From Chryseobacterium aureum (GTDB taxonomy: Bacteria > Bacteroidota > Bacteroidia > Flavobacteriales > Weeksellaceae): 64,000 nt of DNA. A program made the position numbers and the translations under genes. Positions 8,020 to 9,868 of the stretch are shown here, piece after piece (the first letter of the stretch is position 1; every line of letters starts with the position of its first letter). Below the pieces are notes generated by a model that saw only the letters and a program-made list of their open reading frames with translations, searched no databases and was not told where the DNA came from. Where the stretch lies: the NCBI RefSeq assembly GCF_003971235.1, contig NZ_CP034661.1:124001-188000 (forward strand), given 5' to 3'.

Positions 8020-8481
8020 TTATTCCAGATCAATTTTAAACTTGGTAGATTTTTTTACCTCATGAAGTACAATGGAGCTATGGTATTGTCCAATGTTGGG
8101 AAGATTTGAAATTACACTCACCGCAAACTCATTATAAGAATTGATGTCTTTTGCAATAATTTTCAGCATATAGTCGTATTCTCCGGAAAGACTGGTGATT
8201 TCCTGAACTTCATCGTATTGGGAAATATTGTCCTCAAAGGTCTCCAATACTTTTTTGGATTGTTCCTTAAGACGTACATTACAGTAAACAATAATATTCA
8301 GACCCAGTTTTTCACGGTTTAAAAGACCAACATATTTTTCAATGATCCCCTGTTTCTCCAGTTGTTTGATCCGTTCATACGTAGGAGTAAAGGTAAGACC
8401 TATCTTTTCGGAAATTTCTTTTACCGATAATGTAGAGTCTTCCTGAATAATACTGAGAATCATTTTGTCTTTTAAATCCAT
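8020..8481 (-). CDS. Lrp/AsnC-family transcriptional regulator
   Basis: A 153-residue feast-famine regulator. The N-terminal winged-helix DNA-binding domain runs over about residues 1-60 (DKMILSIIQEDSTLSVKEISEKIGLTFTPTYERIKQLEKQGII). The C-terminal RAM/ligand domain has the EITSLSGEYDYMLKI segment typical of the family. It sits convergent to argH and divergent from pyrB, so it could respond to an amino acid and act on arginine or pyrimidine genes. That is inferred only from position. A TATTTTTG -7-like element lies just upstream on the minus strand. Confidence 0.88.
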   Translation of the reverse strand: MDLKDKMILSIIQEDSTLSVKEISEKIGLTFTPTYERIKQLEKQGIIEKYVGLLNREKLGLNIIVYCNVRLKEQSKKVLETFEDNISQYDEVQEITSLSGEYDYMLKIIAKDINSYNEFAVSVISNLPNIGQYHSSIVLHEVKKSTKFKIDLE

Positions 8482-8567: not shown

Positions 8568-8598
8568 TTTGTAGGTTCATAAAATTGTTGTATCTTTG
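8568..8598 (+). promoter_or_regulatory. Bacteroidota-type promoter of the pyrB leader
   Basis: TTTG at 8568-8571, exactly 19 bases, then TATCTTTG at 8591-8598. This matches the TTTG-N19-TAnnTTTG consensus used by the primary sigma factor of Flavobacteriia. The expected start site (about 8602-8606) falls on or just before the ATG of the leader ORF at 8605, so the leader may be read from a nearly leaderless transcript. Confidence 0.75.
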
Positions 8599-8604
8599 CA
8601 CCTA

Positions 8605-8676
8605 ATGAATAAAAAAGCATTTATATCATTAGATTTACCGGGCGAAAGCGCCCTTTACGATATTTATTGTTATTAA
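8605..8676 (+). CDS. Putative 23-residue leader peptide of pyrB
   Basis: A short frame begins with [13 protein letters not shown] and ends in IYCY just before a terminator hairpin. The stop codon (8674-8676) overlaps the 5' foot of that hairpin, and the last codons are U-rich. This is the arrangement of the E. coli pyrBI leader, where ribosomes translating up to the terminator prevent it forming when RNA polymerase stalls for lack of UTP. Assigning this role here is inference from layout; the peptide has no sequence resemblance that I recognise to the E. coli leader. Confidence 0.55.
8640..8653 (+). promoter_or_regulatory. Candidate RNA polymerase pause hairpin in the pyrB leader
   Basis: GGGCG (8640-8644), loop AAAG, CGCCC (8649-8653) makes a small GC-rich hairpin in an otherwise AT-rich leader. 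It is followed by a U-rich stretch and then the terminator. In E. coli pyrBI a pause hairpin precedes the UTP-sensitive tract in the same order. Confidence 0.5.
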
Positions 8677-8703
8677 GCGAAGATTGTTGTCTTCGCTTTT
8701 TTT
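8675..8703 (+). terminator. Intrinsic terminator (attenuator) just upstream of pyrB
   Basis: AAGCGAAGA (8675-8683), loop TTGTTG, TCTTCGCTT (8690-8698), with a run of seven T ending at 8703. The perfect 9-bp stem and T-run lie 19 bases before the pyrB start codon and downstream of its promoter, so it can only act as an attenuator on pyrB. Confidence 0.85.
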
Positions 8704-8722
8704 ATGTCCAAAAATTAGAATT

Positions 8723-9613
8723 ATGTTTACGATTACAGAACTAAGCACCGAGAGAATCAACAGTATACTGACAGAAGCATCGGCTTTTGCAAACGGTAAA
8801 ACTGCCAAAATTGAAGGAGAAGTTTTTTGCTCAAACCTTTTCTTCGAAGACAGTACAAGAACGAAAACAAGTTTTGATCTTGCAGAAAGAAAACTGGGAC
8901 TTCAGGTAGTTCCTTTTGATGCATCACATAGTTCGGTAAACAAAGGTGAGAGTCTCTATGATACAGTAAAGACCATCGAAAGTATAGGAATCAACCTGGT
9001 GGTAATCCGTGATAAGAAAGACAGATACTTCGAAGAACTGAAAAATATTAAGATTCCTGTTATCAACGGGGGAGACGGTACAGGAAACCATCCTTCACAA
9101 TGTATGCTGGATTTGCTGACCATCTATCAGGAATTCGGAAAGTTTGAAGGATTGAAAGTAGGAATTGTAGGAGATGTAAAACACAGCCGCGTTGCCAATT
9201 CAAATGCAGAGGCTTTAAGAAGATTAGGCGCTAAAGTTTACTTCTCAGGACCGGAACAATGGTTTGATGAAGGAGCTCTGATCAACGGAACTTACATGTC
9301 TGTAGACGAACTGATTGGTGAAGTGGATGTTTTAATGTTATTAAGAATACAACATGAGAGACACGATGATGCAATGAGCTTCACAGCTTCAGAATACCAC
9401 AGAAGATATGGTCTGACCAAAGAAAGAGAAAAGGCCATGAAAAAAGAAGCCATCATCATGCATCCGGCTCCCATCAACAGAGGAGTGGAAATAGATTCAG
9501 ATCTTGTAGAATGCGAAAGATCAAGAGTCTTTAAACAAATGGAAAACGGAGTCTTTGCAAGAATGGCTATTTTGAAAGAAGCATTGGAAAGTAAAGGATA
9601 TACCTTTAAATAA
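8723..9613 (+). CDS. pyrB: Aspartate carbamoyltransferase catalytic subunit
   Basis: It joins carbamoyl phosphate and aspartate to give carbamoylaspartate, the committed step of pyrimidine synthesis. The carbamoyl-phosphate loop [10 protein letters not shown] lies at about 43-52, with [16 protein letters not shown] and MHPAPINRG further on. I chose ATG 8723 (MFTITELS, 296 residues). The frame can be opened upstream to a TTG at 8684, but that lies in the loop of the terminator. No pyrI regulatory subunit follows. Expression is probably set by the attenuator directly upstream. Confidence 0.94.
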
Positions 9614-9708: not shown

Positions 9709-9732
9709 AAAATAGAATAGAAAGTTAAAAAG

Positions 9733-9830
9733 CCCCGTAGGGGCGACCCGTTAATAGCAATGGGTGAAGCCCATGTAAATAAAAAGGATTTAGATAATCC
9801 GAGCCCTGTAAGGGCGATCTGTTAATGACA
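9733..9830. repeat. Tandem GCCCYGTARGGGCGA repeat units
   Basis: Two diverged copies of one unit: AGCCCCGTAGGGGCGACC followed by GTTAATAGCAATGGG, and AGCCCTGTAAGGGCGATC followed by GTTAATGACA. Each holds a short GC-rich inverted repeat, and GGGTGAAGCCC sits between them. This is an intergenic repeat with no coding frame. Confidence 0.65.
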
Positions 9831-9868
9831 TATCAATAAAGTAAAATAATAAGAGATAAAAGTTTAAA

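Follow-up and report, generated by a model that had tools for sequence, protein, structure and literature searches.

In nearly all genera examined of the family Weeksellaceae, the aspartate carbamoyltransferase gene pyrB lies behind a compact leader that is best explained as a UTP-sensing attenuator acting through the coupling of transcription and translation, a reading that we regard as likely and in which the peptide product itself would have no role. It is built on the anatomy of the leader and on its conservation, from which we infer termination, readthrough, pausing and the response to UTP. The element probably works in the manner of E. coli pyrBI and would then probably be convergent with it. 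We describe it in Chryseobacterium aureum (assembly GCF_003971235.1), within a stretch of 64,000 nucleotides (contig NZ_CP034661.1, positions 124,001 to 188,000) that we call the window and in whose numbering the features below are placed.

Anatomy of the pyrB leader

The series of elements, all on the forward strand, begins with a TTTG at 8568-8571 that reads as the -33 element of a Bacteroidota sigma-A promoter and is kept in most of 80 Chryseobacterium upstream regions. By direct reading, 19 bases separate it from the -7 element TATCTTTG (TAnnTTTG, 8591-8598), recognized from the sequence and from relatives, and another 6 bases lead from this box to an ATG at 8605. There a leader open reading frame (ORF) of 23 codons plus a TAA begins (8605-8676, stop at 8674-8676), predicted to be leaderless, whose frame and stop are kept in relatives. 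Inside the ORF lies a GC hairpin, GGGCG-AAAG-CGCCC (8640-8653, -9.5 kcal/mol), a candidate RNA-polymerase pause hairpin, and the interval from this hairpin to the terminator is a U-rich tract (8654-8674), the candidate UTP sensor. The intrinsic terminator follows at 8675-8703, with its stem at 8675-8698, a T run to 8703 and a foot that overlaps the stop codon of the ORF. The putatively controlled gene, pyrB (8723-9613, 296 amino acids, assigned from its ORF and from relatives), starts 19 bases past the T run and encodes a protein 97-98% identical to those of its closest named relatives, which belong to Chryseobacterium. Folded as a whole, the leader reaches -26.4 kcal/mol and is more stable than every one of 200 shuffles (z -3.6). 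The original prediction had named this promoter, the 23-codon ORF, the hairpin, the U-rich stretch, the stop-overlapping foot and pyrB 19 bases on, and each was found where it had been placed. The terminator, which had been called perfect, is indeed present at 8675-8703 and is nearly perfect, one of its 10 pairs being G-U (-12.9 kcal/mol, z -4.8 by folding).

In Flavobacterium psychrophilum, the -7 box occupies positions -12 to -5 (PMC9723704). When this position is applied here, the predicted transcription start falls at about 8603 (+/-1), two bases before the AUG, and the pyrB leader mRNA is predicted to be leaderless, its 5' UTR measuring about 0-3 nt. Since leaderless mRNAs are a minority in F. 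psychrophilum (5.5%, PMC9723704), a leaderless leader would be a special choice, possibly one that serves early ribosome loading.

On the other side of the promoter, a putative Lrp/AsnC-like regulator gene (8020-8481, reverse strand) diverges from pyrB about 240 bp upstream of it. Such a gene neighbors pyrB at 109 loci of Chryseobacterium and also in three more Weeksellaceae genera (L115/L116, L133/L134 and L136), and is not beside pyrB in the remaining loci compared; its product might act on the arginine/pyrimidine cluster. Downstream, the gap between pyrB and carA holds two copies of a repeat (9720-9840), GGGCGAnCnGTTAATnnCA behind a GCCC..GGGC palindrome, where 0.07 would be expected by chance in the window. 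It looks like a member of an intergenic repeat family.

Rarity of the arrangement within the genome

A generic promoter and terminator scan is by itself uninformative here, terminator-like sites alone numbering 5 against 4.6 expected in 6 kb. We used a detector that requires a -7 box, a nearby ATG, a short ORF and a terminator whose foot lies no more than 12 nt from the stop. It returned 2 matches in 864 kb (17% of the genome, with 378 terminators), namely the pyrB leader and one site without a gene behind it, and hence no second regulated gene with such a leader in that portion of the genome. The regions upstream of pyrD, pyrE, carA and carB hold no such leader either, and the attenuator device seems special to pyrB in this genome. 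The core sequence of the leader has one exact match in the genome, and one other site with 2 mismatches has an imperfect stem only. A search of Rfam gave no family at gathering score, and the matches near the leader were no better than chance level. That the arrangement arose by chance is excluded by its conservation across 148 leaders. Among the other pyr genes compared, PyrE lies within a 459-aa ORF at one locus (L234, G000:C1:2384715-2385191), where it is probably fused to another domain, with PyrF as the natural guess.

Conservation of the architecture across Weeksellaceae

The regions upstream of pyrB were sampled from 26 Weeksellaceae genera. An automatic scan recovered the box, an ATG 5-7 nt behind it, a short ORF and a terminator in 24 of the 26, with a box-to-ATG gap of 6 bases in nearly all leaders and an ORF of usually 21-26 codons. 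Peptides and hairpins vary between genera while the architecture is kept: pairs in the lower stem of the terminator switch type between G-C and A-U, and outside Chryseobacterium a leader hairpin of different sequence occupies the same place. The hairpin region also gives a moderate signal, folding better than its shuffled versions in 27 of the 28 leaders that represent these genera (mean z -1.3). In one further genus (g4, L127), visual inspection reveals the parts; the stop of its ORF falls about 16 nt short of the terminator, and additional sequence precedes pyrB. The other (g17, L139) has neither the leader nor PyrR, and its PyrB is only 52% identical.

The strictest features are the frame, the stop and the terminator, and the sole strict geometric feature is the stop on the terminator foot. 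Counted from the foot, the stop codon has its first base at -1 in 130 of 148 leaders, and a further 11 place it at -4 or -5 (141/148). For 28 representatives drawn from 24 genera, an expectation was derived by shuffling each leader with its dinucleotides kept. The stop falls within -5 to -1 in 23 of them against 0.8 expected, with a nominal P of 3e-31 that is too small, as the P values count kin sequences as independent. The frame stays open as far as -11 from the foot or beyond in 28/28 (7.2 expected) and to -5 in 27/28. Among the listed representatives, the distance from ATG to foot ranges from 67 to 79 nt and changes mostly in steps of three, and thus the reading frame has been kept through change. 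In the five representatives with the stop off its place, the ORF runs through the hairpin in the manner of E. coli pyrL (L126, L131), ends inside it (L128, L135) or stops 11 nt early (L129). Overall, most exceptions read into or through the terminator hairpin (these four, L077 and L083), and an early stop is seen only in L129 and L127. The original prediction had proposed a comparison with relatives as its test, and the outcome speaks for it: frame, hairpin, tract, terminator and stop-to-foot spacing recur family-wide, and it is the peptide that drifts.

A U-rich tract as the putative sensor

The composition of the interval in front of the terminator is distinctive. In the 28 representatives, U makes up on average 61% and A 30% of the last 16 nt before the foot, while the remainder of the ORF has 29% U; the 16 nt before 377 other terminators of the C. 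aureum genome contain 30% U and 47% A. Tracts of 9 or more U and no more than 2 G+C are found in 20 of the 28 leaders versus 1.9% of these 377 terminators. The tract is most likely the natural place for UTP to set the race between ribosome and polymerase.

The mechanism that we propose would run as follows. Transcription would start no more than about 3 nt from the AUG of the leader, as the position of the box suggests, allowing a ribosome to load immediately at the 5' end, while RNA polymerase moves on to the GC hairpin and then to the roughly 60% U tract. At high UTP, the polymerase would pass fast and outrun the ribosome, the terminator at 8675-8703 would form and most transcripts would end there. 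At low UTP, it would linger in the tract, and the ribosome could catch up and reach the stop on the terminator foot. A ribosome at this stop would cover the 5' arm, no hairpin would form and transcription would continue into pyrB, a physical step with precedent in E. coli. The decision would thus most likely depend on whether the first ribosome has arrived when the polymerase completes the terminator, and what would matter is translation to exactly the terminator foot, not the peptide product. In E. coli constructs, when the distance from a stop codon to the terminator behind it was shortened from 28 to 5 nt, termination fell from about 90% to below 10%, and only if the RNA was translated (PMC4824070); there, a stop a few nucleotides before the hairpin blocks termination as it is expected to do here, in an engineered setting and not in a natural leader. 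We infer a role in pausing for the leader hairpin; the pause at E. coli pyrL is reported to be independent of NusA or a hairpin (PMC9291695).

The same switch, a ribosome blocking a terminator, could also report something other than UTP. The signal could be general translation capacity, that is, translation initiation or ribosome supply, with the tract merely slowing the polymerase for coupling. It would agree with frame, stop and terminator being the strictest features, with a leaderless start that could make initiation limiting, and with the lack of a leader at the other pyr genes of the genome. The tract, however, is specifically U-rich when set against other terminators, and the gene behind it is a pyrimidine gene that in other Bacteroidota stands beside a pyrimidine-sensing regulator. 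We consider a signal from translation supply rather unlikely.

Constraint on the leader RNA and freedom of the peptide

Within Chryseobacterium, the complete series of elements is present in all 120 leaders, and 80 of 80 named loci have the -7 box, the ATG at its usual distance from the box, the stem of the hairpin, the tract and the terminator. The hairpin has the form GGGCG-NNNN-CGCCC, with a constant stem and loop bases that vary and thereby alter amino acids. Mean identity over 116 equal-length leaders, among which some species are perhaps counted twice, is 92.9% for the leader versus 63.6% for third positions of pyrB, and within the genus pN/pS is 1.82 for the leader and 0.03 for pyrB. 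Judged by these comparisons, the nucleotides of the leader are constrained and the peptide is not. One leader that looks intact precedes a pyrB with in-frame stops and frameshifts (L145, in genome G063 of 75% completeness), where the broken gene probably reflects sequencing errors.

The near-invariance of the leader inside Chryseobacterium exceeds what the attenuation model needs, and this strong nucleotide constraint is only partly explained by it. A riboswitch or protein-binding RNA, with the ORF secondary, would account for a leader far more conserved than synonymous sites. The near-invariant TTTATATCATTAGA(A/T)TTACC-hairpin-TTTACGATAT of Chryseobacterium and of genus g32 would then be a possible binding site, and AUAUC and GAUAU could close an internal loop around the hairpin. 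In the leaders of two species (L067 and L079), the GATAT after the hairpin has become AATAT, which breaks this possible closing stem without compensation. The sequence, moreover, is not conserved in other genera that keep the architecture, nothing matches in Rfam, and the constraint on the frame would be left unexplained. We consider such an RNA very unlikely to be what the leader is.

The freedom of the peptide extends beyond the genus. Between genera, pN/pS is 0.85 and 1.22 (overall range 0.85-1.8), and selection on the leader peptide was not seen by this measure within the genus or between genera. No run of control codons for a single amino acid recurs across genera, and among the 28 representatives no conserved pairing of the leader with either arm of the terminator exceeds shuffles (mean z -0.10 and -0.09). 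A free peptide sequence argues against amino-acid sensing and against nascent-peptide arrest, and the lack of pairing argues against an antiterminator of the trp type. With the peptide free and no antiterminator in sight, it is translation itself that appears to matter. A TnaC-like arrest of the nascent peptide at the stop, in response to a small molecule (UMP or carbamoyl phosphate, for instance), could be read from the C-terminus (D/N)IYFI* that several genera share. Yet the ends otherwise differ between genera (YCY, YLF, FIF, IYH, FYN), pN/pS at this place is about 1.2 and the A/U tract explains the recurrent end, which makes such an arrest highly improbable. We give least credence to amino-acid attenuation of the trp or his kind, with control codons and mutually exclusive hairpins, for which a leader peptide with a terminator and Asn triplets in the leaders of three genera might be cited, against no recurrent amino-acid run, an unconserved peptide and no conserved antiterminator pairing.

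Absence of PyrR and the history of the leader

UTP-sensing attenuation at pyrB would fill a place that another regulator holds elsewhere in the phylum. A PyrR query found no PyrR gene in any of 100 Weeksellaceae genomes (28 genera); as a positive control, the same query found one in 33 of 40 other Bacteroidota. Outside Weeksellaceae, PyrB is about 35-47% identical and pyrB usually lies directly behind pyrR, and in 40 pyrB upstream regions from these other Bacteroidota no attenuator leader was found. The Weeksellaceae PyrB proteins form a long-branched clade of their own in our tree. Replacement of PyrR control by the attenuator is the simple reading. Pyrimidine-responsive control at the same gene is also what PyrR-dependent attenuation provides, in its Bacillus form and in the pyrR-pyrB operons of most other Bacteroidota; in Weeksellaceae, in contrast, the PyrR gene is absent, and the window gave no match to the PyrR RNA family. 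On balance, we favor a history in which Weeksellaceae lost PyrR and evolved a leaderless UTP-sensing pyrB attenuator independently of enterobacteria, with the ribosome halting exactly at the terminator foot. Inheritance of an E. coli-like pyrBI was considered and rejected, as PyrB sits in its own clade, although the long branch of E. coli in the tree calls for caution.

Comparison with known attenuators and implications

In E. coli, low UTP slows the polymerase in the pyrBI leader, the ribosome catches up and the gene is turned on. A reading of the E. coli sequence gives the same order of promoter, short ORF, U-rich stretch, intrinsic terminator and pyrB as in Weeksellaceae. The original prediction had claimed exactly the order of E. 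coli pyrBI, which holds for the order and not for the geometry: pyrL has 44 codons, extends across the terminator and stops 3 nt short of pyrB, whereas the Weeksellaceae ORF as a rule ends at the foot. The E. coli leader also begins at its 5' end with an untranslated stretch that carries a Shine-Dalgarno-like GGAGG, unlike the predicted leaderless start here. In line with the original prediction, a sequence comparison showed the leader peptide to be unrelated to pyrL; the PyrB proteins are 33% identical and fall in separate clades, and in the C. aureum genome pyrB is followed by carA, not pyrI. With the trp and his attenuators, the leader shares the principle that termination hinges on the coupled translation of a short ORF, but it has neither their control codons nor a competing antiterminator hairpin.

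In the papers that our search covered, leader-peptide attenuation in Bacteroidota has been suggested only for F. psychrophilum, in its amino-acid operons (PMC9723704), and for Bacteroides thetaiotaomicron, at unnamed short ORFs (PMC7366714). This search, mostly of freely available literature, found no earlier pyr leader-peptide attenuator in this phylum, nor did it turn up a transcript map of a Weeksellaceae species that includes pyrB.

The pattern as a whole looks like a clean regulatory swap, in which most of the phylum has PyrR and one family an attenuator that converges with the textbook solution of E. coli. To our knowledge, Bacteroidota do not use initiation led by Shine-Dalgarno sequences, and we know of little on their control of elongation. 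If our reading is true, polymerase and ribosome would be closely coupled in this lineage of Bacteroidota, at least over a leader about 100 nt long, and the pyrB leader would be a compact natural reporter of transcription-translation coupling, by which coupling in Bacteroidota could be tested with a single reporter.
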